Of a DNA stretch of 64,000 nucleotides, positions 433-55,978 are shown piece by piece. How positions within the stretch are numbered: the first letter of the stretch is position 1; each line of letters opens with the position of its first letter. The position numbers and the translations under genes were made by a program. Source of the stretch: Bacteroidota bacterium (GTDB lineage: Bacteria > Bacteroidota > Bacteroidia > NS11-12g > UBA955); contig CAUJCT010000002.1 in the NCBI GenBank assembly GCA_963169345.1, positions 1 to 64,000 on the forward strand. The letters run 5' to 3'. The notes under the pieces were generated by a model. The model was given only the letters and a program-made list of their open reading frames with translations, searched no databases and was not told where the DNA came from.

Positions 433-1818
433 TTAGAAACTCAGCAAACCCGCAGCGTAATTAGCCCCTAAAATTGCTTTCCTGTTTTTAACAACTACGT
501 CGATTAATTTCAATCGAGCACTTATGTAACTCAATTCCCGGGCGTTGATCATAAACAAGGAACTCTCCCCTGCCTGAAAAATAGATTTCTCTGAATCCAG
601 TAATCGCCCGTACGCATCCACTGTTAAGGTATACTGATTGATCAACTCGAACGTTGCAGAAAACTCATTGATGGCAGTCAAATTCTTAGTCCGTATCTGC
701 TGCTGCTTCAAAGTGAAATCCCAGGTGGCTTCCTTTATTTTAAATTCCGCTAATTTCAAGTCTCCCCTCTCCTTCCTCAATAATAAAGGCATCTTAAAAG
801 TAATTCCAAATTTGTAGTCATTCATAGAGTAACTGCCTACTGTTGAATTGGTGAAATAAGGCTGATAGGCCAGATTCAAAACCGGTTTTATCTGCTCAGC
901 TTTCCACTTCCTTTCTATTTGCAGATTTTGAATTTTCAGCTGCGTAAATATCAATTCCGGATGCCTCATCCACATAGTAGAATCAGGCAACAACATATTC
1001 TCAGGTAATTTGTATTCCTCGAATCCCGGTGCGCGTGTTGTAGCTTCCAGTTCCACTGCCAAAAGCTCTTCTGTCCATAAATAATTAGACAACTCAATTG
1101 TCTTATTTGTAAAATCAAGTTTCGCCTGAATCAGACTAAATTCCCGCTCATTCTTCTGAATATAGGCTTCTAGAGTATCTATAAACGGCCTGTCTCCTAA
1201 AAATGCAAATTGTCTAACAGATTCCAGTCTTTCAATCGATGCCTGATAAGCATCTTTATATACTTCCAGACTGTGATAGGATGAAAACCAATCCCAATAA
1301 GCCTTCCCGGCTTCGTACATCAGATTGTTCAACATAATGGCTCGCTCCGACTGGGTTGAGTTCTTATAAATTTGAGCTTGCTTCAATGCGGCTCTTCTCT
1401 CATCTATCAATAATCCCTGGCCAAGCGTAAAGGATAGTCCGGCGTATGTTAATCCACTCGAAGGTAAACTGTTCTCAGGATTTAAATACAAACCCTGATT
1501 GCGGTCGTATCCTCCTTTTAATTCTAATCCAAAGTAGGTTGGGATACTGATAGTACCATTCATTAAATTGAAATACTCTTTTCCGGTGTATTGTTTTTGA
1601 TTTAAACCAAATCCCAACTTGGGGTCAAATCCTCCTCTGGCTTTTAAAAGATTAGCCTGCCCCATCTCCAGTTTCAAATCGGCTTGCCTAACCATTGGAT
1701 GGTATTGCCTAACCAAATTCATAAACCGCTCCGGACTCAATATTTGCAAGGTATCCGACTTTTGTGCAAAGCCTGATACTAGCGGAAACATGAACAATAT
1801 GAAGTGAACTAATTTCAT
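433..1818 (-). CDS. TolC-family outer-membrane efflux protein
   Basis: 461 aa with a signal peptide (MKLVHFILFMFPLVSGFAQ). The body is long amphipathic coiled-coil helices separated by strand segments, the architecture of the OEP/TolC family (usual length 420-480 aa). It should form the outer-membrane and periplasmic exit duct for the HlyD and ABC proteins encoded just upstream. Its ATG overlaps the hlyD stop by 4 bp (ATGA), which indicates translational coupling. It is the last gene of the tetR-ABC-hlyD-tolC operon. The substrate cannot be read from the sequence; no small peptide or toxin gene is adjacent. Confidence 0.88.
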   Translation of the reverse strand: MKLVHFILFMFPLVSGFAQKSDTLQILSPERFMNLVRQYHPMVRQADLKLEMGQANLLKARGGFDPKLGFGLNQKQYTGKEYFNLMNGTISIPTYFGLELKGGYDRNQGLYLNPENSLPSSGLTYAGLSFTLGQGLLIDERRAALKQAQIYKNSTQSERAIMLNNLMYEAGKAYWDWFSSYHSLEVYKDAYQASIERLESVRQFAFLGDRPFIDTLEAYIQKNEREFSLIQAKLDFTNKTIELSNYLWTEELLAVELEATTRAPGFEEYKLPENMLLPDSTMWMRHPELIFTQLKIQNLQIERKWKAEQIKPVLNLAYQPYFTNSTVGSYSMNDYKFGITFKMPLLLRKERGDLKLAEFKIKEATWDFTLKQQQIRTKNLTAINEFSATFELINQYTLTVDAYGRLLDSEKSIFQAGESSLFMINARELSYISARLKLIDVVVKNRKAILGANYAAGLLSF

Positions 1819-3167
1819 TTTTCAGATGCTTTTTTTTCTGAACCGGTGTTTTTATAATATTCTGGTGGGAAGGCATTAATTTGTCTCCATAATTCGTACC
1901 AGACAGGCACTTCTTTAAGCAACATCATGGTACTAACACCTCCTCCAACTCTCAATTCTTTTGGCCATGCGTGATCATTCGGATCAGGACCAACCAGCAC
2001 ACGGTATTTCCCATTTTCACTTATGAATCTGTCTATTGCTATTACCCGTCCACCATAAGTTCCATAAGAAACACTTGGCCAACCTGAAAATACTATCGCC
2101 GGCCATCCATCAAATTGCACTCGCACCATACTTCCCTTTGTAAGTAATGGCACATCAATTGGCCTGACAAATACTTCAACAGCTAAATCAAATCTGGCAG
2201 GCATTATACTGACAATCTCTGTCCCTTCTTTTATGGTTTCACCTATACCCGTCCTTATCGCTTTTGTAATGTATCCATCCTGAGGTGCAGTAACATAATA
2301 CAGCCCTGAACGTGCCAGGTAGTTGGCATACTGGTTGCGCATCTTGGTCACAATTGCCTCCGCATCATACATGTCACTCATTGCTGCAAACTTATCAGAC
2401 TCTGTCTTCGATATCTTGTCTGAAAATTCAGCCTCCAGTGAATTCAATTCAATCTGACTGTTGATGACTTGATTTTTAGAAGAAAGTAATTTGTTCTCCT
2501 GTGCAATGTATTTCGACTGAGCTTCCTGTAGTTTTAATCTTCTGTTCTCCAAATCTGTCAACGACTTCAATCCTTTTGAATGCAATTCTTCCATTCGCTT
2601 AAACTGACTGTTTGCCACATCCAGATTGGTTTTTGACGCCACTAAATCCATACTGTCACTGGTATAAGAATATCTGGCTTGTTTCAACTTATTTCTTGCT
2701 TGCTCTTTTTTCAATTGTAATGTGGCATTCAAAGCTTGTATCTGTCTTTCATTCGCTCTTATCTTTTCAACATACGAATTGACAGATTGTTCTTTTGCAA
2801 GCAATTGTTCATTGGTTCTTTGAAGTAATTTAGGATCGAAATACTCATCTTTTACCTCAGTAATAAATACAATCGTATCGCCTTTTTCAACATATTGTCC
2901 TTCCTGAACATACCATTTCTCTATTCTTCCTGGTAATATGGATTGAATGACCTGTGGCCGCTGATCCGGCTTCAAAGCGGTAACCTGACCATAAGCCCTT
3001 ATATTTTGCGTCCATGGCAATATCATTATAATAAATACAGGTACCAGCAAAAGAAACAATACTCTCCTTTTAACTTTAAGTCCCGGACGTGTGTTAATTA
3101 TCGCCAAAGACTTTGTTTTATGATGTCTTACATCTTTTCTAATACTATTTTCTGTTATCCCTAACAT
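1815..3167 (-). CDS. HlyD-family membrane fusion protein
   Basis: 450 aa. A basic cytoplasmic N-terminus is followed by one membrane segment (about residues 34-53, VLFLLLVPVFIIMILPW). Next comes a biotinyl/lipoyl-like half domain (about 75-108, with GRIEKWYVQEGQYVEKGD), a long coiled-coil hairpin (about 110-280), the second lipoyl half (TAPQDGYITKAIRTGIGETI) and beta-barrel regions. This is a type I secretion/efflux adaptor bridging the inner-membrane ABC protein and TolC. The gene starts 3 bp after the ABC stop and its stop overlaps tolC. A type I adaptor partnering a degenerate ABC ATPase is discussed in the findings. Confidence 0.9.
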   Translation of the reverse strand: MLGITENSIRKDVRHHKTKSLAIINTRPGLKVKRRVLFLLLVPVFIIMILPWTQNIRAYGQVTALKPDQRPQVIQSILPGRIEKWYVQEGQYVEKGDTIVFITEVKDEYFDPKLLQRTNEQLLAKEQSVNSYVEKIRANERQIQALNATLQLKKEQARNKLKQARYSYTSDSMDLVASKTNLDVANSQFKRMEELHSKGLKSLTDLENRRLKLQEAQSKYIAQENKLLSSKNQVINSQIELNSLEAEFSDKISKTESDKFAAMSDMYDAEAIVTKMRNQYANYLARSGLYYVTAPQDGYITKAIRTGIGETIKEGTEIVSIMPARFDLAVEVFVRPIDVPLLTKGSMVRVQFDGWPAIVFSGWPSVSYGTYGGRVIAIDRFISENGKYRVLVGPDPNDHAWPKELRVGGGVSTMMLLKEVPVWYELWRQINAFPPEYYKNTGSEKKASEK

Positions 3168-3170
3168 AAT

Positions 3171-4817
3171 CTATGCTTTCATTTGGTAAATTTGTTTATA
3201 CTTCAATTTATACTCAGGTGTGTTCGCTGAGGATACAATTGTCCATGGAGCATTTTCAGAAAATAAATAATCCGCAATCGCTCTTCTGGAAGGTTCTTCC
3301 ATAAAATCTATTCCACTCTCCAATAACAACAATTGAGGCTTATGTACTATCGCTCTTGCCATCAGTATTTTTTGTATGATACTGTTGGACACCCTGCAAC
3401 CATTTGGTCCGATTAAAGTATCAAATCCCCTTTCCTGCTGTTTGACAAAATCTAATAATAACAATTTTTCTGCCACTTCCTGAATTCGGGCGATATCTAT
3501 ATTCGGTCGACCCAAACTAATATTTTCAGCAATTGTTCCATCAAATATGGTTTCTTGCTTGAAGTAAGTTCCAATGACTGAACGCAATGAATCCATGCTG
3601 TAATTATCCATTGGTAAATCATTAAAACAGATATTGCCTTTTTCAGGTTTATATATCCCGGCTAACATGTGCAACAAAGTCGTTTTACCGCTGCCCTGCT
3701 CTCCTATTAAATGCGTATGCTGCCCTTTTCCTATTTCTATATTCAGTTGATTGAATACCGGCTGATTGGTTCCGGGATAAGTAAACCTTAAATCTCTTGC
3801 TTCAACAGAAAAACCTCCAGTTGGTTGATATATAACGGAATTTTCATTGTTTCTGTCCAATTCAATGTCTGTTACATAACCGATTTTTTCAAGTGAAGTC
3901 ATCACATCATAAATGTTTTCAATGCTTAGAATGAGTTTCTCAACAGAATTTATCACTAAGAGGATTATAATTTCGGCAGCTATAAACTGACCAATGTTCA
4001 TTTCTTGATTTAAGACCAGTATACCTCCAATCAGCAATAACCCTGCTGCAACTGAAGCCTTAAAAATTATGAGAAAAACATACTGCAATTTCAAAACCTT
4101 AAAGTGGTTTTCTCTGGCATCCAGATATTCGATTACATGTCCATCCATTTTTTGAATTGGCAAATCTGAATCGTGTGCAATCTTAAATGATAACCTGGTT
4201 TTAGCCATATCTTCCAACCAGGCCACTACTTTGTACTTAAATTTCGATTCCTTTAAACTGGTTTCTAATCCACGTCTGCCGGTATATCTGAAAATAGCTA
4301 GAATTAACAAGAATAAGCCCAATCCAAAAAAGATGAAGAAGGAATGGTAAAATGCCAGTAAAATTAATCCAAAAATGATTTGCAAAGTTGCGGTTGAAAA
4401 ATCTATCAAAACCTTTGAAAGTCCTTTTTGAATAGAGACAGTATCAAAAAATCTGTTCATCAACTCAGGCGCACTTTGACCAAACATCGCTGAAGCTTTA
4501 AATTTGGGTAGTCTGTATGTAAATTCAAAAGCCGCATTTGTAAATAGTTTTTGCTGCAGATTTTCGATAATTCTCATTTGTGCAACCTGTAAAATACCTG
4601 TTAACAGAATCCCTGCCACAACTATTATTACCAGTACTATCCATGAAGTTGAAACCTGTCCTCCCTGGATTAAATTAACAATAGCCTGAATACCCAAGGG
4701 AATGGACAGATTGACAATTCCCTGAATAATTGCATAAGTGTAGACATTCCAAATGTCTGACTTATCTTCCTTTAACAGCCTTACAAATCGCTCTATTGGA
4801 CTATAGCTTAGTTTCAT
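3171..4817 (-). CDS. ABC exporter subunit (TMD-NBD fusion) with degenerate ATPase motifs
   Basis: 548 aa. Residues about 20-300 hold transmembrane helices of the type I ABC exporter fold and 335-548 the nucleotide-binding domain. Walker A is intact (GEQGSGKTT, 372-380) and a Q-loop glutamine is at 421 (YFKQETIFDGTI). The LSGGQ signature position reads RVSNSIIQK (475-483). Walker B, normally hhhhDE, reads LLLLES (496-501). The switch region (TIVSSANTPE) lacks the usual histidine. There is no N-terminal C39 peptidase domain. It belongs to the HlyB/LapB-like exporters by shape and by operon (tetR, hlyD, tolC). It probably binds ATP, but hydrolysis as a homodimer is doubtful. Confidence 0.85.
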   Translation of the reverse strand: MKLSYSPIERFVRLLKEDKSDIWNVYTYAIIQGIVNLSIPLGIQAIVNLIQGGQVSTSWIVLVIIVVAGILLTGILQVAQMRIIENLQQKLFTNAAFEFTYRLPKFKASAMFGQSAPELMNRFFDTVSIQKGLSKVLIDFSTATLQIIFGLILLAFYHSFFIFFGLGLFLLILAIFRYTGRRGLETSLKESKFKYKVVAWLEDMAKTRLSFKIAHDSDLPIQKMDGHVIEYLDARENHFKVLKLQYVFLIIFKASVAAGLLLIGGILVLNQEMNIGQFIAAEIIILLVINSVEKLILSIENIYDVMTSLEKIGYVTDIELDRNNENSVIYQPTGGFSVEARDLRFTYPGTNQPVFNQLNIEIGKGQHTHLIGEQGSGKTTLLHMLAGIYKPEKGNICFNDLPMDNYSMDSLRSVIGTYFKQETIFDGTIAENISLGRPNIDIARIQEVAEKLLLLDFVKQQERGFDTLIGPNGCRVSNSIIQKILMARAIVHKPQLLLLESGIDFMEEPSRRAIADYLFSENAPWTIVSSANTPEYKLKYKQIYQMKA

Positions 4818-34728: not shown

Positions 34729-35085
34729 TCAATACTTATTAAGTTCAGCGTATTTTATCATTATTCCCATTGAGTCTCTATATAAAGTAACTATAGAGCT
34801 ATTAGAATCCTTATGAATTGAATCACCTATTTCCAATATTTTATCTTGCAATGGCGTTGTGGAAATTTTCGTATAACACACAAATGTATCATTATTAGAA
34901 ACTCTTACTAGATATATAGATCTTGGTTGAACTTCAATTTTTGTAATTACACCATTAACTTCCATTCGTTTATATTTTTTCCAATAAGGAGAATTACCAC
35001 AAGAATAAGTCACCATCATTAGGGACAATACTATTAATAATGTGAACTTATTTAACTCCTGATTATTTGTATGAGGCATTTTCAT
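34729..35085 (-). CDS. Small lipoprotein, paralogue of the gene at 46611
   Basis: 118 aa. N-terminal hydrophobic segment ending MMVTYSCGNS (lipobox-like YSC). The body is about 65% identical in a by-eye alignment to the 109-aa protein at 46611-46940: EVNGVITKIEVQPRSIYLVR, SNNDTFVCYTKIST, EIGDSIHKDSNSS, YRDSMGIMIKYAELN. DNA is also clearly similar. Its ATG overlaps the upstream stop (TAATG). No known family was recognised. Periplasmic or outer-membrane anchored by lipid. Confidence 0.72.
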   Translation of the reverse strand: MKMPHTNNQELNKFTLLIVLSLMMVTYSCGNSPYWKKYKRMEVNGVITKIEVQPRSIYLVRVSNNDTFVCYTKISTTPLQDKILEIGDSIHKDSNSSIVTLYRDSMGIMIKYAELNKY

Positions 35086-37183: not shown

Positions 37184-37588
37184 TTATACCCTTTGTCCTA
37201 CCCCCCCTGATGTCTTTGTCAAATATATTACTACAAGTATACTAAAACTTAAAACTAACAAAACAAGACCTGATAATAAAATCAACCATCCTAAATTTTT
37301 ATTATATTTCTTTTTTCCTGATTTACTATTAAAATAGGCGTAAATTTTACGATACTTTCTACCCCTTTCAAAGTAAAACAAATTTAGAATCCATAACAGA
37401 GTCGTCATAATAAATCCACCATAAAAATATAAATTAAAATCAAAAGGAATGAACAGACTGGATAATATTAAAATATTTATTGTTACTAATACTGCATAAA
37501 TGTAACTAGCGCCTTCTGAATACATGCCATTATAACTTCGAACATATGACTTGTATATCAAATAATATAAATATTGATAGTAATTCAT
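37184..37588 (-). CDS. Small membrane protein, paralogue of the gene at 45924
   Basis: 134 aa. The N-terminus MNYYQYLYYLIYKSYVR, the YSEGAS motif, two central membrane helices, NLFYFERGRKYRKIYAYFNS, KYNKNLGWLILLSGL and a final membrane helix are all shared in order with the 133-aa protein at 45924-46325. Topology suggests three to four membrane segments in the inner membrane. No known family. Two copies in one island is typical of immunity-like or mobile accessory genes, but function is unknown. Confidence 0.68.
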   Translation of the reverse strand: MNYYQYLYYLIYKSYVRSYNGMYSEGASYIYAVLVTINILILSSLFIPFDFNLYFYGGFIMTTLLWILNLFYFERGRKYRKIYAYFNSKSGKKKYNKNLGWLILLSGLVLLVLSFSILVVIYLTKTSGGVGQRV

Positions 37589-45102: not shown

Positions 45103-45612
45103 TTAAGGCGATGAGAGATATGCCTTAATAATTTGGTCTAATATTTGACTGTGATAAAAGTATACACAATAACTAATCGAAGGGATACGCACATGACCAT
45201 ACTCAACACCGAAGGATGATACTGATTTAGCTACTTCCTTTGCTATTTGCTCTATGATACCGATTTTTCCAGAGTTGGCCTTGTCTTCAAGCAAACTAAA
45301 ATAGACTGAAGTGCTATTATCATATTTATATAAGCTATCTTTGGGAAAGCTTGCATATATACACTCACATAAGAAAACTTCTTTTAAAATCTGATCATTG
45401 GGTGGTATAATTTCATAGTGAATGCTATCCAGAGTCATATATTTAACCAAAGAATCCACCAAGCTTATAAACCTCGTAGAATCTTCGACATAAATCTTCC
45501 TAATTTCCTTTAACAAGGTATCATTTTTACTCAACCTTGTATCTTCCCAACCTTGAGCCTTTAATGTAAGAGAAACCAATAAAACAACGCCAATACAAAT
45601 TGTGTTTTTCAT
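45103..45612 (-). CDS. Secreted protein of unknown function
   Basis: 169 aa. Signal peptide MKNTICIGVVLLVSLTLKAQ. The body is helical, with two cysteines in FLCECIYASF and one in ISYCVYF. No domain recognised. Confidence 0.6.
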   Translation of the reverse strand: MKNTICIGVVLLVSLTLKAQGWEDTRLSKNDTLLKEIRKIYVEDSTRFISLVDSLVKYMTLDSIHYEIIPPNDQILKEVFLCECIYASFPKDSLYKYDNSTSVYFSLLEDKANSGKIGIIEQIAKEVAKSVSSFGVEYGHVRIPSISYCVYFYHSQILDQIIKAYLSSP

Positions 45613-45923
45613 AATTAATTTAATCTACTAAGTTTTAATTTCAATTTTCACACTTTAGTGTCAAATTTTCTTTGAAAGGTAAGAAAACCGGAGATTATAT
45701 TGCCTCTCAGAATCTTAAAGTGTAAAGCAAATGTATTAACATTTAACGGATGAACAATGAGTAATTATTGCATATATGCTATAAAAAAACAAAAGCAAAA
45801 AGGAAATAGCCATGGAATTTGGTTGCAGTTTCAGGGTATGTGGAAGACTTTTTCGACAGATTAAAAGTATTCATAGTCTTAAACTAGTCCAAGGATTTAG
45901 GGGGTTAAGACAACTAACTATAC
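45613..45923. other. Gene-free spacer, nothing recognised
   Basis: 311 bp between two minus-strand genes. No repeat, terminator or promoter consensus stood out. It does not carry the spacer element found at 49-54 kb. Confidence 0.5.
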
Positions 45924-46325
45924 TCAAAATGCAGACTTAAAATTAAAATTCATTATAACAAAAATTAAAATTTTAATAACCCTAACAATAAATCCAATTA
46001 ATAAAATCGTCCATCCCAAATTCTCATTATATTTTAAACGTCCAGCACTACTCTTAAAGTACCTATAATCCATGTAATACCTTTTTTTTCTTCCAAAATA
46101 AAATAAATTAAATATCCAAATTATAGACATCAAAATAAAACCAATTAATAACCAATTAAATCCAATATTTAAGAAAAGACTCGACAAAAGTATTATGTTT
46201 ATTGTGACAAGGTTAGCAAGTAAAAGACTTGCTCCTTCTGAATAAACACCATATTTAATAAAATCAATATTTTCTCTCACATACGCTTTATAGATTATAA
46301 AATATAGATATCTGTAATAATTCAT
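45924..46325 (-). CDS. Small membrane protein, paralogue of the gene at 37184
   Basis: 133 aa. It shares MNYYRYLYFIIYKAYVR, YSEGAS, LVTINIILLSSLF, IWIFNLFYFGRKKRYYMDYR and KYNENLGWTILLIG with the 134-aa protein. Three to four membrane helices. The pairing of this family with the 46611 lipoprotein mirrors the 37184/34729 pair about 10 kb away. Function unknown. Confidence 0.68.
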   Translation of the reverse strand: MNYYRYLYFIIYKAYVRENIDFIKYGVYSEGASLLLANLVTINIILLSSLFLNIGFNWLLIGFILMSIIWIFNLFYFGRKKRYYMDYRYFKSSAGRLKYNENLGWTILLIGFIVRVIKILIFVIMNFNFKSAF

Positions 46326-46610
46326 AATTAGAATAGTTTAAAGTACTAAGGTGGAAAAGCCGACGAAATTGCCTCGCTTGCGACGAAGTATATTGACCCC
46401 TTGTTTTGAGAATAAAAATCCATCATTATTCATCTTAGTTTTTTAGGTTAACACGAATGTATATTTTTTCTGTTAATTTTTGTTGATTGTAGGCTCCCCC
46501 GAAAAGAGTACGATCTAAAAATAACGAAAAATATTTATTTTAAGAGAAAATAAAAAATGATAAAGACGTATTTGCACCTAATTTGGTGGTAATTTAATTC
46601 TATACCCATT

Positions 46611-46940
46611 TTAATCTTGATTAAGTTCCGCATATTTTATCATTCTTCCCATTGAATCTCTATATAAAGTAACTGTATAGCTATTCGAATCCTTATGAAT
46701 TGAATCACCTAATTCCAATATGATTTCTTGCCTATGAATTGTGGAAATTTTCGTATAACACACAAATGAATCATGATTAGAAACTCTTACAAGATATATA
46801 AATCTTGGTTGAACTTCAATTCTTGAAATTACACCATTTACCTCACTTCTCTTATATTTTTCCCAATAAGAAGAATCACCACAAGAACCAAGGATTGACA
46901 TAGTAAAAATCAATAAAAGTGAATTATACAAAATATACAT
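46611..46940 (-). CDS. Small lipoprotein, paralogue of the gene at 34729
   Basis: 109 aa. Lipoprotein signal with the lipobox ILGSCGDS. The mature part matches the 118-aa paralogue nearly colinearly (SYWEKYKRSEVNGVISRIEV; QPRFIYLVRVSNHDSFVCYT; LYRDSMGRMIKYAELN). The DNA of the 3' half is nearly superimposable. Function unknown. Confidence 0.72.
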   Translation of the reverse strand: MYILYNSLLLIFTMSILGSCGDSSYWEKYKRSEVNGVISRIEVQPRFIYLVRVSNHDSFVCYTKISTIHRQEIILELGDSIHKDSNSYTVTLYRDSMGRMIKYAELNQD

Positions 46941-47533
46941 AACTATTTAGAATATTTTTTGGTTTAGTAGCATTATTAGTATTGATCCATTTCATTTAAG
47001 ATTTCTTTGTTTCTTTGCAATTAGACTTGTAGAAAAATATGATAATTACATTGTAAGAAAATAAAAACTTGGCCAACCGCTTGGATCTGTCAGATATATG
47101 AAAAAAGAATACCTATCACCTCTTCTGAAAATAGGCTTGACTTCTGAAAATTCATAAGACTCGCCTATTCCAATCACTTTTTCACGAAATTCTAACTGTC
47201 CACTCTTGTTATAAAGGTATAAATAGGCCGAATACTCCGAATAATAATGTCGATACACAAACAGCCCACCACTATTTATGCTGTCTTTAATTGGAACATA
47301 GAATTCAAATGAATCATTAAAAAAAGATGAATCAAAGACTTTATTGTAGTTGTTATGTATCATTCGAGTTTCCCTGAAAACATTCCAACTTCCATTGATT
47401 CTATAGAAATCATATTCGTATCTATGATTTCTTTTTACTTCCTTACTGCTAAGCAAAATAACTGAGGTATCTGTGACATTATAAATATTTTCTTTGTATG
47501 CATACATATTCTCATCATACTCCCACACAACTA

Positions 47534-48892
47534 TCCGAAACTTTTTTGAAAAAGTTTGAATAAGCCTTATTTTGGCAATGTACCACCAGAACCGCAATGG
47601 GCCTATTCAAACGAACCAAAAATAATAACAAACCAGTACTTCGCCAAATTTTAGATTTAATCCCTGACTGGTTAGTTCAATCTTGTATAAGCAAATACCA
47701 ATCAGATAAGGGCTGCCACAAGTATATGACCTATGATCAACTGGTCGCATTAAGTTTCGGACAGCTTTGCAAATGCACGACACTAGCCGATATTAGTGCG
47801 GGATTGTCTGTTAGCGAAACATTTATTCGTGATCTTAAATTGAAACAAAATCCGGCTAAAAGCACGATGAGTGATGGGAATAAAAACCGCAACTGGCGTG
47901 TGTTTGAAATGTTATATTATAAATTATTGTCTCATTATACCCAAGTGCTAAAAGTAAAGCATAGAACTGATATCATTGATGAGGTGAAACACCACACCAT
48001 CAAAATTATCGACAGTACCACTATCAGTCTGAGCCTTGGTTTATTTGATTGGGCGAAGTTTCGGACAGCTAAAGGCGGCATTAAAATACACACATGTTGG
48101 GATGATTCCTTGCAAATACCAGACATGATAAATATAACACCTGCAAAAGTGCATGACAGCAAAGGATTTGAGCAGCAAGTGTTTAAGAAAGATACAATCA
48201 TTGTCGAAGACAAAGGCTATTTTGATTTTAAATTAATGCGTTCTCGAATTGATGCAAAAAACATATTTGTAACCAGAATTAAGGATAATACGCTGTTCGA
48301 AAGAATTGAAGAATTAGATCTCCCTGATGAAAAGCACTATCATATACTCAAGGACGAGATCATCACACTCACTGGAGTGAAGGCTAAAGAATGTGGCATG
48401 GAGGGACTAAGCTTAAGATTAATTCATGTTTATGATGAGGTGAATAATAAAGTCATAGAAATATTTACGAATCAACTCACTTGGGAGGCCGCTACAATTG
48501 CAGCTTTATACAAAAAAAGATGGGATATCGAACTTTTTTTCAAAGGTCTCAAACAGAACCTGCAAGTAAAAACCTTTGTCGGTACAAACGAAAACGCGGT
48601 AAAATCACAAATCTATGTCGCCTTGATACAATATCTACTATTAGAATTACTCAGACGTAATACTTGTAAAATTAAGCAGGGAATGAGCAATTTTAGCGAG
48701 AAAATCAGGATTTGTCTCACGTATTACCTATCAATTGAATATGTCTGCAATGTCGTCAAACCGAAAGTATTCAGGATTAAAAACAAGGAACCAGATTGGA
48801 TTCAGGTAGATATTTTCCAAAAAACCAAACTAAGTCTGTAGTATTTGCTGGGCCTCTGGAGGATTGTTTTGCAGTATTAGAAAACTTTCGGA
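47534..48892 (+). mobile_element. IS4-type insertion sequence
   Basis: About 1.36 kb bounded by imperfect inverted repeats: the left end TCCGAAACTTTTTTGA (from 47534) and the right end, read on the other strand, TCCGAAAGTTTTCTAA (from 48892). It contains one transposase gene. No exact target-site duplication is visible; the flanks ATAGTTGT and ACTGCTGT (minus strand) agree at only 5 of 8 positions, so the insertion is old or the boundary is off by a few bases. Confidence 0.75.
47597..48841 (+). CDS. IS4-family transposase
   Basis: 414 aa. An N-terminal DUF4372-like region (LRQILDLIPDWLVQSCISKY, MTYDQLVALSFGQLCKCTTL) is followed by the DDE catalytic domain: IIDSTTISLSL with the first Asp, DTIIVEDKGYFDF with the second, and YKKRWDIELFFKGLKQNL, the Y-(2)-R-(3)-E-(6)-K signature of IS4 elements. 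It appears full length and uninterrupted, so the element may still be active. It lies on the opposite strand to the gene it disrupts. Confidence 0.93.
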   Translation: MGLFKRTKNNNKPVLRQILDLIPDWLVQSCISKYQSDKGCHKYMTYDQLVALSFGQLCKCTTLADISAGLSVSETFIRDLKLKQNPAKSTMSDGNKNRNWRVFEMLYYKLLSHYTQVLKVKHRTDIIDEVKHHTIKIIDSTTISLSLGLFDWAKFRTAKGGIKIHTCWDDSLQIPDMINITPAKVHDSKGFEQQVFKKDTIIVEDKGYFDFKLMRSRIDAKNIFVTRIKDNTLFERIEELDLPDEKHYHILKDEIITLTGVKAKECGMEGLSLRLIHVYDEVNNKVIEIFTNQLTWEAATIAALYKKRWDIELFFKGLKQNLQVKTFVGTNENAVKSQIYVALIQYLLLELLRRNTCKIKQGMSNFSEKIRICLTYYLSIEYVCNVVKPKVFRIKNKEPDWIQVDIFQKTKLSL

Positions 48893-49375
48893 CAGCAGTG
48901 AATTTAAATCTAATAGTCTTTCCCTTGAACAAGGTTGCTGTATAATAAGCGCTTTCACAAGAATTATACCATGCAAATAATCTGATTTTACTTTTTCTTT
49001 TAAATTTCCTTTTCCAATTAAGATGAGTTATTTTATTGATATCTATTTTGGTATAGCAACGATTGGTTAGATTAGTAACTGAATCAAGATGGGAAATATC
49101 GAATATTATTTTAAATTTATTAAACTCAATCAAGTATCTACCTTTTTATGAATTAACGATTAAACCATTTGAATCACAATAGTTAATCTTAATTGAACTA
49201 TCTATTACTCCAAATGAATCCTTATAAACTAATTGACCATCAACAAATATTTGATTTACAAAATGTGGATGAAAGCTTTGAGAATTTAAATCAAAACAAA
49301 TAAACAACAATAAAAGCCGAATTCTAGTCATTCTCTTTTCCATTATATGATAATCTACTAGCCCAACTCGCAACA

Positions 49376-49473
49376 CTCCAAACCCGCGTTGGCATTATGC
49401 TCCCAAAGGGGGAAGGAAATGAGGGTGAGAGTGGGAGTGAGTGTGAGGAAGGTTTAGTCATAGAGCGAAGATA
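49376..49473 (-). repeat. Spacer element copy A
   Basis: Module 1, CTCCAAACCCGCGTTGGCAT (49376-49395) continuing TATGCTCCC; a purine-rich GTGAG-type middle; module 2, GTTTAGTCATAGAGCGAAGA (49452-49471). It lies between two minus-strand genes. Four related copies follow at 51.3, 52.3, 53.0 and 53.8 kb. Confidence 0.75.
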
Positions 49474-49556
49474 AATAAAAAATGAGTTTTACCCCAGTTC
49501 AAGACATAACTTCTAAACAATTAAGTTAGTGTTCATTCAAGATTAGATGAATAAAA

Positions 49557-49961
49557 TCAAAATCGTTCTTTAACAATTTTGGCTTGCATTTTTATTTTTC
49601 TCATTTCCAATATATAATTTCTATTAGAATCGTTAATAGCGATGATTTTGCAATTCAACAAACTTGAGTAATACACCAGATCATAGTAAAAATCTGAGTC
49701 ATTTAAGTAGTTAATTCCAAATGTCCCCTTATTTATTAAACTCTCTTCATTACTCATTTTCTCAATTGCTGTTACTATCGTACCTACCTCAACACCATTA
49801 TGAAATTTGTACTCATAATACAATGCGTTTAAATATTCACATTGGTTGCAGGTATCTTTTCCACTCTGAGGACTGACAATGATATTACTTCTTTTATCAC
49901 TTGAGCAAAATGATAGAAGTAATAGCAAGAACAATACAACTAGACTTTTTTTAACCACCAT
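49557..49961 (-). CDS. Lipoprotein of unknown function
   Basis: 134 aa. Lipoprotein signal SLVVLFLLLLLSFCSSDKRS (lipobox LSFC). The mature part has a C-x-x-C pair (DTCNQCEYLN) and IVTAIEKMSNEES. No family recognised. One of the series of single minus-strand genes separated by the spacer element. Confidence 0.6.
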   Translation of the reverse strand: MVVKKSLVVLFLLLLLSFCSSDKRSNIIVSPQSGKDTCNQCEYLNALYYEYKFHNGVEVGTIVTAIEKMSNEESLINKGTFGINYLNDSDFYYDLVYYSSLLNCKIIAINDSNRNYILEMRKIKMQAKIVKERF

Positions 49962-50182
49962 AACGATATGTACCTCTTCCTATATTATATGTTTTTATCA
50001 TTTTTTATTGTCTCCATGTCTTAGCCCACCTAATTCTTGGACATTATTTACTAAATGGTTTAAGTTCATATTCTTTTCGGTTTTAATATCCTTGAAGATC
50101 ATTTATAAAATAGAACACTAGATGAGAATTATTAACTTTGAATCTTTTACTAAAAAAGGGAGGGTTACATTTAAAATAACAT

Positions 50183-51157
50183 TTATTTTTTTTTAACTAA
50201 ATCAAATAATTCGTTTATAACATTCCTTAATTCATCATCAAAATCAATATTATTATAATCTGTTTTGTAATAATGCTGATAAATATAATCTCGCTTATCC
50301 AATGGAATTTCGGTAAAACAAAGTTTTGAATCAAAGTAAATTTTAAAGAAAAAAGTCAAATATTTCTTTAAAGCTCCATTATTTCGTTCGTTAACAAATC
50401 CATAATCTGAGATTAGAATTGGGGAATCAGGGTAAAACTTTAATTGGATAACATTGAAAAGGGCATTCGCAATTTCAAAAAAAGATGTGTCATCTGTAAA
50501 TCTATCTTCTAATCTGAATAAAATATTAGAAAAATAGTCTTTGTCTTTCAATACAAATTTTGCGCTGAATTCAGTGTAATAAGTACTGACATTCACTTCA
50601 CCTAACTTATATGGATATATTTTACCGATCAACAGGATATTATTCCTTTCGATATCCGTATTCAGACTTTCAATTAAATTCTTGCATAGAATTGTGTCTA
50701 GTTTGTCCTTCTCAAATGAGATACTTAGCAAAGTGTCAAAATAATACTTGTATTGGACCGGATAGTGACAAAAAATGTACTTATTGTTAAATATTATCTT
50801 GTAAAAATCTGTTATAATTTCTCTTCTTATTATTTCATGTAAATTTGAATCATTGTCAAGAGACGGCGCATATTCTTCTGAATCTTCATATGCTCCAAAA
50901 GAAATTCCTGATAAATATTCCAACATATTTGAAAAATAGTAAAACTGGCTTTTAGGTAGGTTTTTATCCAGAAATCTTTTTTGAAATTCGACGATTTTCA
51001 AAGTATCCTTCTTTATCCAAGATTCACATACATGAGAAACATAAGTATAAATACTATCATGATAAAACTTACAATCTTCACAAGAAACTCTTGTAGAATT
51101 CGCTTTAATCAGAAATGTAAAAGAAATAATTATTAAAAAAAGAAATGTTTTTCTCAT
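50183..51157 (-). CDS. Secreted protein of unknown function
   Basis: 324 aa. Signal peptide MRKTFLFLIIISFTFLIKAN, then a C-x-x-C pair (SCEDCKFYHD), here as in the neighbouring 134-aa lipoprotein and the 177-aa protein (CFSC). The rest is helical and rich in Tyr, Phe and Asn, without recognised domains. The spacer on its 5' side carries element copy B. Confidence 0.6.
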   Translation of the reverse strand: MRKTFLFLIIISFTFLIKANSTRVSCEDCKFYHDSIYTYVSHVCESWIKKDTLKIVEFQKRFLDKNLPKSQFYYFSNMLEYLSGISFGAYEDSEEYAPSLDNDSNLHEIIRREIITDFYKIIFNNKYIFCHYPVQYKYYFDTLLSISFEKDKLDTILCKNLIESLNTDIERNNILLIGKIYPYKLGEVNVSTYYTEFSAKFVLKDKDYFSNILFRLEDRFTDDTSFFEIANALFNVIQLKFYPDSPILISDYGFVNERNNGALKKYLTFFFKIYFDSKLCFTEIPLDKRDYIYQHYYKTDYNNIDFDDELRNVINELFDLVKKK

Positions 51158-51284
51158 AAGTCAAGTTTCCATAATTATCTAATTATTTAAAATTCCATAC
51201 TTAACTTTTAGCCATTAGCTGAATCTTTATCCTTCCCATTACCTTTCGCTTGAAGGAGCCAGTCATATACATCCCATTTATATC

Positions 51285-51371
51285 GCTCCAAACCCTCGTT
51301 GGCATAATACTCCCTAAAGGGATGTGATGGAAGATATGTGTAAAATATAGTTTGAGTCATAAAGCGAATAT
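51285..51371 (-). repeat. Spacer element copy B
   Basis: Module 1, GCTCCAAACCCTCGTTGGCA (51285-51304) continuing TAATACTCCC; module 2, GTTTGAGTCATAAAGCGAAT (51350-51369). The whole spacer 51158-51442 holds no gene. Confidence 0.78.
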
Positions 51372-51442
51372 AAGAAAATTTCAGGATAAAAACGTTTCAA
51401 GTTTCCTCAGAAATAAACTTCCTATTGTCTTTTGACCTAGCC

Positions 51443-52033
51443 TTAATTCACTCTTAATGTTGTGAAAAATACCCGTTTAATATATTTCGAGTAATTACTC
51501 TCTTGTTTAAATTTGCGCCTGAAAAAACGCTTCATATTGGTTGTTCTATTAATCACTGGATAAAGCTTCTCATACATCGATAAATAATGCGGATGTTTCA
51601 ACAAGTATTTTTGATGTTTTTTGTCATTTTCACTGAAACCATAAACTTTAATAAGATAAAAATTTGTTAAACGCATTCCCTTTGGACCTTCATAGTACAT
51701 TAAAAGCAAATTATCATCCTGAAGTACTGTATCAATTACTCGAATGTATAAACACTTCCTGACAACATCCAGATACCAAAATGTTTTCATCTGATTCAAT
51801 TCATCTTGAATTGGATTACTATAAATTGTGTCAAAATAACAATTATTCACACCGGGACTAATACACATTAATTTGGCTTTCAAAATAATCTGGTCGATGC
51901 TACATTTACAGATTCCCGAAATGCTTGAGTCTTGTTCAATTGGCTCGATACTGTTCCTGTAATTACTAACCTCTATTGCCTTTACATTTGACGTCAACAT
52001 CAACAATGCTCCAATCAAAATTTTTAACTTCAT
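51443..52033 (-). CDS. Secreted protein of unknown function
   Basis: 196 aa from ATG 52033 (a TTG 6 bp upstream is also in frame). Signal peptide MKLKILIGALLMLTSNVKAI. Cysteines in SGICKCSID and KLMCISPGVNNCYFD. A basic C-terminus contains KRFFRRKFKQESNYSKYIKR. No family recognised. Confidence 0.58.
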   Translation of the reverse strand: MKLKILIGALLMLTSNVKAIEVSNYRNSIEPIEQDSSISGICKCSIDQIILKAKLMCISPGVNNCYFDTIYSNPIQDELNQMKTFWYLDVVRKCLYIRVIDTVLQDDNLLLMYYEGPKGMRLTNFYLIKVYGFSENDKKHQKYLLKHPHYLSMYEKLYPVINRTTNMKRFFRRKFKQESNYSKYIKRVFFTTLRVN

Positions 52034-52039
52034 ATACAA

Positions 52040-52435
52040 TTCATTTTTTCTTAGGAGTAACTAAATAATTCATTTTTCACTTTATGTACAATATTTACAT
52101 TTTTGAATTTCCTCGTAGGCATATTTTGGATTTAGTTTTGGAATCAATCCAAGCCCATTGAAGCTGCAGAATTCATGCTGCAATCTTTTGATTTTCCATA
52201 ACTTTTGGATTAAATACTTGTTAATATTGTTGGTTAGTTAATTTGGGCAAACTTATTACATCTCTATTAACCCTCGTTGGCTTTATACCCCCAAAGAGAT
52301 ATGATGGTGAGCGTGAGAACGAAGAAGTTTGAGTCATAAAGCGAAGATAGGAAAATATTTCTCTATTACATTAAACATAAACTCATCACATAGAGAAATG
52401 TCATTACAGTGTTTTAAACTATTTTAATATATAAC
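52040..52435. other. Gene-free spacer containing element copy C
   Basis: 396 bp between minus-strand genes. Apart from the repeat at 52268-52349 nothing was recognised. Confidence 0.55.
52268..52349 (-). repeat. Spacer element copy C
   Basis: Module 1 without its first bases, TAACCCTCGTTGGCTTTATA (52268-52287) continuing CCCCC; a GTGAGCGTGAG middle; module 2, GTTTGAGTCATAAAGCGAAG (52327-52346) plus ATA. Confidence 0.78.
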
Positions 52436-52927
52436 TTAAAACTTAATTTTAGTTAATTCCATAACAGTTTGCTCAAACGCATTGATATATTCAAAAGTAT
52501 AATACTTATCCATATTTCTCTTGCTTGAAACTATAAATTCTTGATATTTTAGTGAAGTTGAATCATCTGAATTACCATAGGCTCCTACCGTACCTGCCCT
52601 AAAAACGAACTTTGAAGAATCGTCACTCAATTTACTTTCTTCTTTAATGGCAATGATTTCCTTTCTATTTCCATTAGAGTCTATTAAATAAAACTGTTGA
52701 TCAAGGTTCCCATAAATATCTTTAAATTTAGTAAGTAATATCCCATTTTGGGGAATAACATAAACTCTTACATTGTTTTCATATTTTTCTTCAGCACCCT
52801 CCTTTATATTATATATAATATTTACTTTTCCAATATATGTTTCTGGAATTAAAAATACCTCCTTTATCAAATTACTAGATGAAGAACATGAAACAGAAAT
52901 TAAAATTAAAATTAGATACTTATACAT
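52436..52927 (-). CDS. Lipoprotein, DUF6843-like
   Basis: 163 aa. Lipoprotein signal MYKYLILILISVSCSSSSNL (lipobox VSC). The mature part, FLIPETYIGKVNIIYNIKEG followed by VYVIPQNGILLTKFKDIYG, matches the DUF6843 pattern (IP-GY-G-V-I-Y, then IP-NGIL-T). The molecular function of that family is unknown. Confidence 0.65.
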   Translation of the reverse strand: MYKYLILILISVSCSSSSNLIKEVFLIPETYIGKVNIIYNIKEGAEEKYENNVRVYVIPQNGILLTKFKDIYGNLDQQFYLIDSNGNRKEIIAIKEESKLSDDSSKFVFRAGTVGAYGNSDDSTSLKYQEFIVSSKRNMDKYYTFEYINAFEQTVMELTKIKF

Positions 52928-52975
52928 TACTTGTTTTCTATTAAATTGAAAATTTCACCATTTACTTAATGATCT

Positions 52976-53021
52976 TTATGAGTGGGTGTGAGTGTGAGGA
53001 ATTAATAGTCATAAAGCGAAT
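52976..53021 (-). repeat. Spacer element copy D (partial)
   Basis: Only the GTGAGTGTGAGGA middle and module 2, ATAGTCATAAAGCGAAT (53005-53021), remain; module 1 is absent. It lies 49 bp upstream of the 52927 start codon. Confidence 0.68.
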
Positions 53022-53117
53022 TTAAGAAAAAAATTAAAATCTTGATGGATTTGCTTTCAAAAATACAAATTGATATCAAATCGAAAGACCTGTTTAGTGA
53101 ATAAAAATCAGTGAGTA

Positions 53118-53750
53118 TTAATTTTCCTCTATGTTAAATGAAAAGAACTCCTCTACATCTTCACTAAAATTAACTGGCTCATCATTCACTTGAATTAAGA
53201 TATACTTTAGAGTATAATTATAATTATATGCTATCACCCAAAAGTCTTTCAAAAACAAATATGAATATTGCTCATCTGACATTCTATCAATATCAAACTT
53301 ATAATAGTAAAGTTTTTTTGCCTTATTCTGCTTCTGAATAGTTGAAAAATAGTTATAGTCGATGTTTTTTCTCAGTGTATCAAAATCCGCTAAAATATTT
53401 TTATCGTATATATCTATTACTTTTGAATCCCTTACTAAGTAAAGACTTCTAAAACGCTGCTCTTCTAAGTACTTTTCATCAAACAAACTTTCAAAACTTA
53501 GACTATCATAATTTTCAATACTATCACTGGAATCCAGACCAAATTCAACACTTTGATGGAATATAGAATCATGATGTCTCTCTAACCTATCCACCATAAA
53601 AATAAAAGCACTCAAGCTTGATTTATAAATTAGAAAATTCACCCCTTCATTTAATTTCAGCCCATCACTCTTAGCATCTGGAATTCTACAACTGGCACAT
53701 AATACAATCAAAGCTAAACATACAATTTTATATAAATAAAAATTACTCAT
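53118..53750 (-). CDS. Lipoprotein of unknown function
   Basis: 210 aa. Lipoprotein signal YKIVCLALIVLCASCRIPDA (lipobox CASC). The mature part is acidic and Ser/Tyr-rich (SDSIENYDSLSFESLFDEKY). No domain recognised. Confidence 0.58.
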   Translation of the reverse strand: MSNFYLYKIVCLALIVLCASCRIPDAKSDGLKLNEGVNFLIYKSSLSAFIFMVDRLERHHDSIFHQSVEFGLDSSDSIENYDSLSFESLFDEKYLEEQRFRSLYLVRDSKVIDIYDKNILADFDTLRKNIDYNYFSTIQKQNKAKKLYYYKFDIDRMSDEQYSYLFLKDFWVIAYNYNYTLKYILIQVNDEPVNFSEDVEEFFSFNIEEN

Positions 53751-53814
53751 TTTGACTTTATATTTCTCAAGTTTTTAAATCCCCACCTGCTTATTCAAGT
53801 TGGAACAACACAAT

Positions 53815-53908
53815 TCGCTCCAAAAAGTATTGATGCCATACACCTAGTGAGGCACGATATTGAGTGTACTAGTGCGAGTGAGGAAGTTTGAGTCATAAAG
53901 CGAAGATA
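53815..53908 (-). repeat. Spacer element copy E
   Basis: Diverged module 1, TCGCTCCAAAAAGTATTGAT (53815-53834) continuing GCC; middle GTGCGAGTGAGGAA; module 2, GTTTGAGTCATAAAGCGAAG (53886-53905) plus ATA, identical to copy C. Confidence 0.75.
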
Positions 53909-53965
53909 GGGAATATTAAGAAAAAAGTTGCAGTTTGTTCTCCGCGATATACAACTTAAAACAAT

Positions 53966-54499
53966 CTAATCCAGAATTTTAACATCCCTCAAAATATAGC
54001 CTTTTGTTAAAGTATTAAGGTGTTTCCGTTTATTATAAGGGTAATCCAGTTTATTTAAGTAAGGCCACATATATCCATCGATAAATTGTGTCTTATTTTT
54101 AGCATGTAGTATTTTCCTTCTGAATGTTTTAAATCGAAACCCTTTAAACAATTTCTTTTCATCCTTTTTTAAATATATCAGATGAACTCTTTTAAAATAT
54201 CTTGAATACAACCAGAACTCATTTACAAAAAGACCCCTATCCAGACTCAAGATGTCATTTAGTTCAAGAAAAAAGCCTGTATCTGAATACTTCTCGCCTC
54301 TTTTTATAACACAATCCACAGCAGTATTAACTTGGTCAGGATAAGAAAAACTATAAAGAAACAAATTCCGGCCAGTGTCCATCAAACATGAAAAGCAAAC
54401 TTCAGAAGTATCCATTTCAGAAGTAATATCTTGAGATTTTATTGATTCACTTTTGTGAACATTGAAAACTAGCAGAAGGATTATGATATGCTTTATCAT
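53966..54499 (-). CDS. Secreted protein of unknown function
   Basis: 177 aa. N-terminal signal MIKHIIILLLVFNVHKSESI. A CFSC motif follows at about 34-37. The basic C-terminal half has KRVHLIYLKKDEKKLFKGFR and KNKTQFIDGYMWPYLNKLDY. No family recognised. Confidence 0.58.
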   Translation of the reverse strand: MIKHIIILLLVFNVHKSESIKSQDITSEMDTSEVCFSCLMDTGRNLFLYSFSYPDQVNTAVDCVIKRGEKYSDTGFFLELNDILSLDRGLFVNEFWLYSRYFKRVHLIYLKKDEKKLFKGFRFKTFRRKILHAKNKTQFIDGYMWPYLNKLDYPYNKRKHLNTLTKGYILRDVKILD

Positions 54500-54561
54500 T
54501 TAGTTTTAGTGGTTTATAAATTGGAGAGTAAAATACTTGAATTGAAAATCAAATTGAAAAA

Positions 54562-55428
54562 TTAAATACACTCAAATCCCCAATCTTTTAAATTTCCTCC
54601 TATTATCAGACGTCTGAGAAAAATAAGGCTATTGCTTATGTTTAGTTCTTTATATAGTTTGTTATTTACAATTACTTGAAAAGTATCTGAATTGATTTTC
54701 TCAATATTGAAGTTCAATTTTCTAATTTTGAGTACCTCCTTTATCAAAATATAACACTCATCAATATCAGTATAATTAATTGAATCTGTTTCAAAAATTG
54801 CAGATATGATCGAATCTTTAAGTATTGGTCTGATATCCTCAAAAAAATAGCATCCATTTAAAACAATATTCCCTTTAGTGTGACTTATGAAATACACTGT
54901 ATCACCAGCATATTGTTCAAAATAATCGGAACCATGAACAATAGCTACTTCAAATTCGCAAGTATGAACGTCGAAATAAGCATTTTTTGAAACAACTCTT
55001 TTTTCGATCAAAATAGTATCTTTCATCAAGTAATTATAATGTGAAAGACTATTTTTTAAAACAAAAAATACAGGACTTTTTAAAAATGCATAAAGACCAG
55101 AATCCGTCCTCTCAATATCACTTATAGATGCTTGATTAAATTTAACTGGTATTTCCAAAATTTTCGAGAAGCAAGAAACTACGTTATACGTAGCCAGATA
55201 ATTGTATTTATATTTAATAGAAAACTGCTTTAATGAATCATTTTTCAATAATTCACAATCTGCATCAAAGGAGTCCCTAATTTTAACTACTTCTGTCTTC
55301 GAATCTTGAGCAAGTGTTGGTTCAAAAACAGACAGTACAAGCCCCAAAATCAGGTTTCTTAAACTTTTTACTGAAATGCACTTAAATAAAAGTTCTAATT
55401 TTAGAGCTTTTTTTTCATCGTTTTTCAT
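54562..55428 (-). CDS. Secreted protein of unknown function
   Basis: 288 aa from ATG 55428. The frame is open to 55581, but that would overlap the upstream gene by about 107 bp, and the signal-like hydrophobic segment (LILGLVLSVFEPTLAQ) sits about 40 residues after ATG 55428. The body is beta-rich, with recurring short segments such as FEVAIVHGSDYFEQYAGDTV. No domain recognised. Confidence 0.55.
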   Translation of the reverse strand: MKNDEKKALKLELLFKCISVKSLRNLILGLVLSVFEPTLAQDSKTEVVKIRDSFDADCELLKNDSLKQFSIKYKYNYLATYNVVSCFSKILEIPVKFNQASISDIERTDSGLYAFLKSPVFFVLKNSLSHYNYLMKDTILIEKRVVSKNAYFDVHTCEFEVAIVHGSDYFEQYAGDTVYFISHTKGNIVLNGCYFFEDIRPILKDSIISAIFETDSINYTDIDECYILIKEVLKIRKLNFNIEKINSDTFQVIVNNKLYKELNISNSLIFLRRLIIGGNLKDWGFECI

Positions 55429-55474
55429 GTCTTGGAATTTGTTAGCCTTTTTCGCCAGCTTGTATATATATAGT

Positions 55475-55978
55475 TCATAGTTTTGAATGAGAAGGTAGTA
55501 TAGGAATTGGCAATGTTTTATACCAAAGTGATATAGGTTTTCGTTTGTATTGTTTTTTTCTTTTAATAATGTAAAAATCACTTATTGTCGTTAAATCTAA
55601 CCAACTAAAACCATTAAAATAAAACTTCCTAATTTTGCCATATACAATAATATATTGTTTAAAAACAGAGTCTTTTAAAATTAATTCATTGTTGTAAATT
55701 ATATTTCCGGTTTTATCCTTATTTATAGTGATTAAAAATTTACGATTAATTGTGTCTCTACTGATTAACTTTGATTTAAATTTATATATTTGATTGTTCT
55801 TTTTAATAACCAATTCGGGGTATCCTTTTATATTCAAATTTATTGGTATATAGAAATACATAGAATCAATAGATTGAGCTCTAATTCTTGAACCATAAAC
55901 GAATATCAAAAACAAAAAACATAAGTAAATATGAGTTTGGGGGTTCGATTTCAGCAGGTTCAATAATTTTGTCTTCAT
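55475..55978 (-). CDS. Secreted protein of unknown function
   Basis: 167 aa. Signal peptide IYLCFLFLIFVYGSRIRAQ after a basic leader. The rest is beta-rich, with KKNNQIYKFKSKL and a very basic C-terminus (IIKRKKQYKRKPISLWYKTL). It is the first gene of the minus-strand series and diverges from the T9SS protein gene at 56132. Confidence 0.58.
   Translation of the reverse strand: MKTKLLNLLKSNPQTHIYLCFLFLIFVYGSRIRAQSIDSMYFYIPINLNIKGYPELVIKKNNQIYKFKSKLISRDTINRKFLITINKDKTGNIIYNNELILKDSVFKQYIIVYGKIRKFYFNGFSWLDLTTISDFYIIKRKKQYKRKPISLWYKTLPIPILPSHSKL

Follow-up and report, generated by a model that had tools for sequence, protein, structure and literature searches.

A Repeated Spacer among Small Co-oriented Genes

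We analyzed a 64,000-nucleotide stretch of DNA from a Bacteroidota bacterium (assembly GCA_963169345.1, contig CAUJCT010000002.1, positions 1 to 64,000), referred to here as the window, in which a row of small minus-strand genes is interrupted by a repeated spacer element. A reading made earlier from the sequence alone had described five related spacers between consecutive genes, and had proposed a gene-cassette array in which the spacer serves as the exchange site. The sequence bears out that the five copies are related, that they lie where they had been placed and that all are on the minus strand, and the genes between them are, as described, unrelated, small, mostly secreted or lipoprotein-like orphans in a single orientation. 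The spacers measure 180-400 bases each. The copies (A to E) and the genes of the array are given below in order of position; each copy is entered as an apparent head (5′ end) of an rhs module, with its promoter-like box, the ATG behind the box, and the E value obtained with a model built from the five copies.

49146..49343, minus strand: small gene of 65 amino acids behind head A, signal peptide-like, possibly a truncated immunity gene; no usable family match
49371..49490, minus strand: copy A, rhs-module head with box TATCTTCG at 49466-49473, ATG at 49461-49459, CT-rich leader and Rhs-core start; E 3.5e-24
49557..49961, minus strand: lipoprotein-like orphan of 134 amino acids, the second gene between heads B and A; open reading frame (ORF) with no family
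50183..51157, minus strand: secreted orphan of 324 amino acids following head B and putatively an orphan immunity gene; 108 genomes of the order yielded no relative
51281..51393, minus strand: copy B, rhs-module head with box TATATTCG at 51365-51372 and ATG at 51360; E 5.6e-24
51443..52033, minus strand: secreted orphan of 196 amino acids following head C and putatively an orphan immunity gene; 395 genomes of the phylum yielded a single weak partial match
52258..52368, minus strand: copy C, rhs-module head with box TATCTTCG at 52342-52349 and ATG at 52337, reading MTQTSSFSRSPSYLFGGIKPTRV...; E 8e-27
52436..52927, minus strand: DUF6843 lipoprotein gene of 163 amino acids behind head D, very probably an orphan immunity gene; PF20862, E 2.1e-21
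52956..53040, minus strand: copy D, with box TAAATTCG at 53017-53024, ATG at 53012 and CT-rich leader, the Rhs-core part gone; E 2.2e-15 over model positions 8-92
53118..53750, minus strand: lipoprotein-like orphan of 210 amino acids following head E and putatively an orphan immunity gene; the 395 phylum genomes yielded a single weak partial match
53805..53929, minus strand: copy E, with an intact box TATCTTCG at 53901-53908, ATG at 53896 and a degenerate Rhs-core part; E 3.3e-20
53966..54499, minus strand: secreted orphan of 177 amino acids upstream of head E, in the same array; no head detected before it and no usable family match

Read on the minus strand, the element consists of TTTTTCTTATCTTCGCTTTATGACTCAAAC, a CT-rich middle and CTTTGGGAGTATAATGCCAACGAGGGTTTGGAG, the first and last being the reverse of what the sequence-only reading had called module 2 and module 1. 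Both modules are present in copies A to C; copy D has module 2 and the CT-rich middle only, and in copy E module 1 is degenerate. The description of one gene per unit holds except in the interval between copies B and A, which contains two (50183-51157 and 49557-49961). The ATG of the 65-amino-acid gene overlaps the end of the stub ORF of copy A. Co-oriented small genes extend past the copies on both sides (45103-47597 and 53966-55978), and no copy of the spacer was detectable in these flanking stretches.

Within its own genome the element is confined to this locus. Searching the whole 3.63 Mb genome with the five-copy, sequence-only model recovered all five copies (E 8e-27 to 2e-15; minus strand of contig C2), the sole additional match being one on contig C33 (E 0.015, 16.8 bits) that consists mostly of the promoter-like part. 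In a scan of the window with filters off, the real copies scored 58-95 bits and the next best match 5.7 bits, and GTTTGAGTCATAAAGCGAAG, allowing up to three mismatches, occurs four times genome-wide, each time at the locus, with no occurrence of the reversed control. The further copies that had been anticipated elsewhere in the source genome were thus not found in the whole-genome search, beyond the promoter-like resemblance on C33.

Intact rhs Modules in Related Genomes

Many more copies, each standing before a different gene, were instead found in a relative. When 70 genomes of the family were searched with the model built from the window copies only, a family-level relative, G018, yielded 24 matches with E ≤ 0.01, in arrays whose units recur about every 1.5 kb. 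The array contigs fetched from this genome contain 46 model matches, 38 of which lead into an Rhs-core motif; seven are cut by contig ends, and one is of another kind. The units of G018 open with TTTTTCCCTACCTTCGCTTTATG, continue with MFPTPKNTAIVLNPFGSIMVSVSKGEYRYGFNGKEKDNE... into an Rhs core (Rhs_assc_core in NCBIfam), and then have a variable C-terminal domain followed by a small unrelated gene; one of the C-terminal domains matches a TseH-like effector family. Those of G015, a relative within the same genus, likewise consist of an Rhs core, a variable C-terminus and a small unrelated gene, and open for example with MTLPHCPYYPPFGSSLPNRTWSDANRGYRFGFNNQEKD.

The G018 arrays, found on contigs C58, C85, C34, C18 and others (L035-L046), bring the Rhs-core matches of this 3 Mb genome to more than 50, and many of these contigs end, or carry short runs of N, at the shared heads, so that the arrays break the assembly. 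No homologs of the window's array genes were found among the ORFs of the G015 and G018 arrays by tblastn or phmmer.

Rhs-Core Remnants in the Spacers

Translation of the window copies from the ATG behind the box gives MTKPSS...FGSIMPTRVWS, MTQT... and the like. Copy A still encodes SPFGSIMPTRVWSVASWASRLSYNGKEND up to a stop, which is a decayed Rhs core, and its stub ORF continues to a stop at about 49324 (MTKPSSHSLPLSPSFPSPFGSIMPTRVWSVASWASRLSYNGKEND). In copy B one extra base shifts the frame before GSIMPTRVWSD, and a later stretch reads NGKDKDSANG and a stop. The NGKEND of copy A and the NGKDKD of copy B correspond to the next block of the Rhs core, kept just before the following gene.

A tblastn comparison of the G015 rhs heads with the window gave its best matches in spacer A (35.8 bits, 49413-49327) and spacer B (30.0 bits, 51338-51258); in a control of 200 first-order Markov windows the best score was 28.5 bits, and none of the 200 reached 30. 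Spacer C was next best, matching a G018 rhs head in tblastn with E 0.003 (52355-52281). The Rhs-core start in A and B is therefore beyond that of random windows and that in C is weaker, D and E being linked solely through the DNA of the head. In the window no open Rhs-core or C-terminal ORF separates a head from its gene; the spacers retain nothing of rhs modules but 5′ stubs, and no toxin genes lie between the small genes. Judged from these sequence comparisons, the spacers appear to be the 5′ heads of rhs modules that have lost both core and C-terminal domain.

The source genome has one long Rhs gene (G000:C19:130729-130986, L053; a frame of 3784 amino acids), the core of which (FGSVIQEMKYAHVEEGDTAGYIFGFNGKEYD) is less like the window heads than are those of G015, and a broken Rhs core on contig C33 (G000:C33:41731-41832, L057).

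A Promoter-like Box before the Start Codon

Reversed, module 2 takes the form TAnnTTCG-N4-ATG, with the box four bases before the ATG in all five copies. The part from box to ATG is the best kept of the spacer, the block extending to ATGACT being 92% identical between copies as compared with 43% upstream and 58% downstream, and variation inside the box is confined to the two n positions. The consensus of the flavobacterial sigma-A -7 box is TAnnTTTG (PMC9723704), and the window box agrees with this flavobacterial consensus at five of the six fixed positions in each of the five copies. Weak matches of the model in genomes of the same genus mostly have TAnnTTyGCtTTATG in common. Two model matches 1 kb apart in another genome, G086, turned out to be promoters of unrelated lipoprotein genes and were set aside. 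The promoter-like part is intact even in copies D and E, where the core part is gone or degenerate, as would be expected if expression of the small genes were under selection.

DUF6843 Genes behind Rhs-Core Reading Frames

The genes of the array are mutually unrelated, and the one for which identity as an immunity gene is well supported is the DUF6843 gene. Relatives of this gene were sought in a collection of 84,980 genomes, for which a broader DUF6843 alignment was too diverged, and three passed (at loci L098, L099 and L100). The closest, L098:2753-3307, is 48% identical and overlaps the end of an Rhs-core ORF (1707-2792), and L099 contains two DUF6843 genes, each directly after an Rhs-core ORF (pairs at 1477-3031 and 3214-4619), so that the order of Rhs-core ORF followed by DUF6843 gene is found in three cases, one in L098 (within 1707-3307) and two in L099. 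The C-terminal domains of these three Rhs ORFs are mutually alike by eye (FAPF.TFGGGFSGD and similar), and one of them is marginally DUF3238-like.

Because toxin followed by immunity gene is the usual order in such systems (PMC3482391), and DUF6843 genes stand directly behind Rhs-core ORFs in these three cases, the DUF6843 gene of the window very probably encodes an immunity protein whose toxin is absent. By the same token, DUF6843 and the Rhs C-terminal domain in L098 and L099 probably constitute a new toxin-immunity pairing. The remaining array genes had Pfam and NCBIfam matches that were all under the cut-off and were disregarded; for those behind the other heads, position, size and signal- or lipoprotein-like N-termini suggest that they too may be immunity genes.

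Other Features of the Island

A gene for a DDE transposase (PF01609 with DUF4372) lies on the plus strand at 47597-48841, inside the minus-strand array. Two clusters of the island share paralog pairs, 34729-35085 with 46611-46940 (72% identical) and 37184-37588 with 45924-46325 (52%), and part of the island therefore looks duplicated; a weak match of the first pair to a G018 ORF (E 0.008) appeared, when inspected, to be due to chance. Between 39259 and 42581 there are two Fic-like proteins, one with a gene for a small helix-turn-helix protein just upstream (assigned by eye), and the same island contains a duplicated pair of genes of 171-173 amino acids (40808 and 42897).

Origin of the Array

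We consider it highly likely that the locus is a heterogeneous polyimmunity (orphan immunity) array, each spacer of which is the 5′ head that remains of an orphan rhs-CT/immunity module. In the relatives, a module begins with a promoter-like -7 box and, four bases further on, a start codon; then come a short leader, the opening of the Rhs repeat-associated core, a C-terminal domain that varies between modules and is the putative toxin, and a small unrelated gene that would encode the cognate immunity protein, with the modules arranged in tandem on one strand. Starting from such a tandem array, the toxins would have been lost by deletions that began within the core and stopped just short of each immunity gene, leaving a head and a small gene in each unit. 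The head was probably retained because its promoter would now drive the immunity gene, and the cell may thereby be kept safe from the toxins of neighbors, toxins that it no longer makes.

Several observations weigh against this account. In 395 genomes of the phylum, DUF6843 genes were not within 1.5 kb of Rhs heads, and the DUF6843 gene of L100, the third relative, likewise has none beside it, so that the family is broader than this role. The genes behind heads B, C and E have no relatives that would reveal their role (the 65-amino-acid gene was outside those searches). The box is promoter-like in its -7 part, it carries a C where the consensus has T, and only one G015 head fits it strictly. 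A mixed profile made mostly of G018 heads scored 9.5 bits, compared with up to 10.2 bits in random windows, and is not significant alone; the case at the protein level thus rests on copies A and B together with the DNA-level matches, and for copies C to E, where it is weakened, on their DNA-level relation to A and B. Finally, the locus was read in a single strain of the species, and a toxin-bearing ancestor at the site lies outside the sample.

Three other explanations were weighed. Were the array integron-like, the spacer would be an analogue of attC, used by a tyrosine recombinase to insert single genes and to excise them, as the co-oriented small orphan genes and their common spacer might suggest. 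The GCCCAAC...GTTGGC inverted pair at copy A, which the sequence-only reading had called faintly like attC ends, also favors this, but it occurs in copy A only, and when four copies were folded on both strands with DNA parameters no attC-like hairpin was significant (z -1.6 to +0.3 relative to dinucleotide shuffles). A tyrosine recombinase or similar elsewhere had been named as support for the cassette proposal; the genome has eight PF00589 (phage-integrase-type) matches, none of them on contig C2 (118.5 kb), and the sequence of the spacer is accounted for by the promoter-like box and the Rhs core. At the end of the orphan rhs-CT/immunity array of G015 there is an XerA/XerC-like tyrosine recombinase, below cut-offs (L049:2950-3996, G015:C84), an arrangement that speaks for this explanation and recalls the rAID (recombinase-associated acquired interbacterial defence) loci discussed below; a recombinase may accordingly help to build such arrays in the relatives. 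We regard an integron-like origin of the window array as extremely improbable. What stands of the cassette proposal is the modularity, a shared head with an unrelated small gene in one orientation, and not the spacer as exchange site; and the possibility of old duplicated coding remnants, which had been named as counting against the proposal, is realized to the extent that the remnants are coding, although they belong to a toxin-immunity system that is itself of cassette type.

The spacer could also be a regulatory leader, in which case a regulon element with no link to rhs (a promoter together with a 5′ leader or a leader peptide) would have been copied before each gene. The presence of a promoter-like box and a short ORF before each gene, and the fact that the box is the best-conserved part, are what such an element would produce, but the leaders of A and B read as Rhs core, in relatives full Rhs-core ORFs begin with the same head, and no stable single-strand fold was obtained with DNA parameters; we think this very unlikely, a regulatory role for the head itself being compatible with the polyimmunity explanation as well. 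Alternatively, the heads might be present-day homology tracts for recombination of rhs modules, making the array an active exchange platform and not a decaying remnant. Recombination of orphan modules through common rhs sequence is known (PMC3150448), and the near-identical heads of many G018 modules, at which contigs break, are consistent with it. In the window, on the other hand, the core part is decayed or missing (D and E) and all C-terminal domains are gone, and the only full-length Rhs of the genome has a rather different core, so that we give this explanation little credence.

If the array is a polyimmunity locus with retained heads, stages of its formation can be seen side by side, intact tandem rhs-CT/immunity modules in the relatives and, in the window, the same heads, now without toxins but still followed by the small genes. 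A route in which the toxin is lost and promoter and immunity gene are kept thus becomes testable by comparison of strains, a role is suggested for DUF6843 as partner of an Rhs C-terminal domain, and the head sequence provides a handle for finding such arrays in environmental genomes.

Comparison with Known Systems

Recognition of the conserved spacer in such an array as a retained toxin-module head seems to be new; we found no openly accessible paper that equates the two, which is not proof that none exists. The likeness to integron gene cassettes extends to single small genes in one orientation with a common spacer, but the array here has neither an attC structure nor a recombinase on its contig. 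It also resembles the rAID loci of Bacteroidales (PMC12247911), with their co-oriented short orphan immunity genes and conserved intergenic motifs. The contig here lacks a tyrosine recombinase, however, and for that reason we do not file the locus as rAID; in addition, its motif is identified as an rhs-module head, and it comes from another part of the phylum. How rAID loci come about is still to be defined (PMC12247911). It is a speculative idea, and one we think rather doubtful, that each orphan rhs-CT module of this lineage is a self-contained cassette equipped with a promoter and a start codon, that polyimmunity arrays arise from repeated toxin loss sparing the head, and that the motifs of other arrays, rAID among them, are retained heads of the same kind.

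The parent type would be the orphan cdiA-CT/cdiI and rhs-CT/rhsI modules (PMC3150448), tandem fragments of a large toxin gene each with an immunity gene, which are intact in G015 and G018. Most orphan cdiA-CT genes have been described as lacking translation starts (PMC3150448), whereas in the modules of the relatives a promoter-like box precedes a start codon; the window has no toxins left, and its units, lacking the C-terminal toxin domain, are remnants and not complete orphan rhs-CT modules. Heterogeneous polyimmunity loci (Zhang et al. 2012, PMC3482391) similarly have unrelated immunity genes (here mostly putative) in a row on one strand with no toxin genes between them. Those loci have small intergenic distances, from which a polycistronic message was inferred, in contrast to the long spacers here, each with its own promoter-like box and rhs stub. 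In the type VI secretion system immunity gene arrays of Vibrio cholerae (PMC5361080), too, effectors have been lost and cognate immunity genes of several types kept in a row, the proposed cause being displacement by incoming effector-immunity modules (PMC5361080); unlike in those arrays, the loss of toxins here would have taken place within tandem rhs modules that keep their heads.

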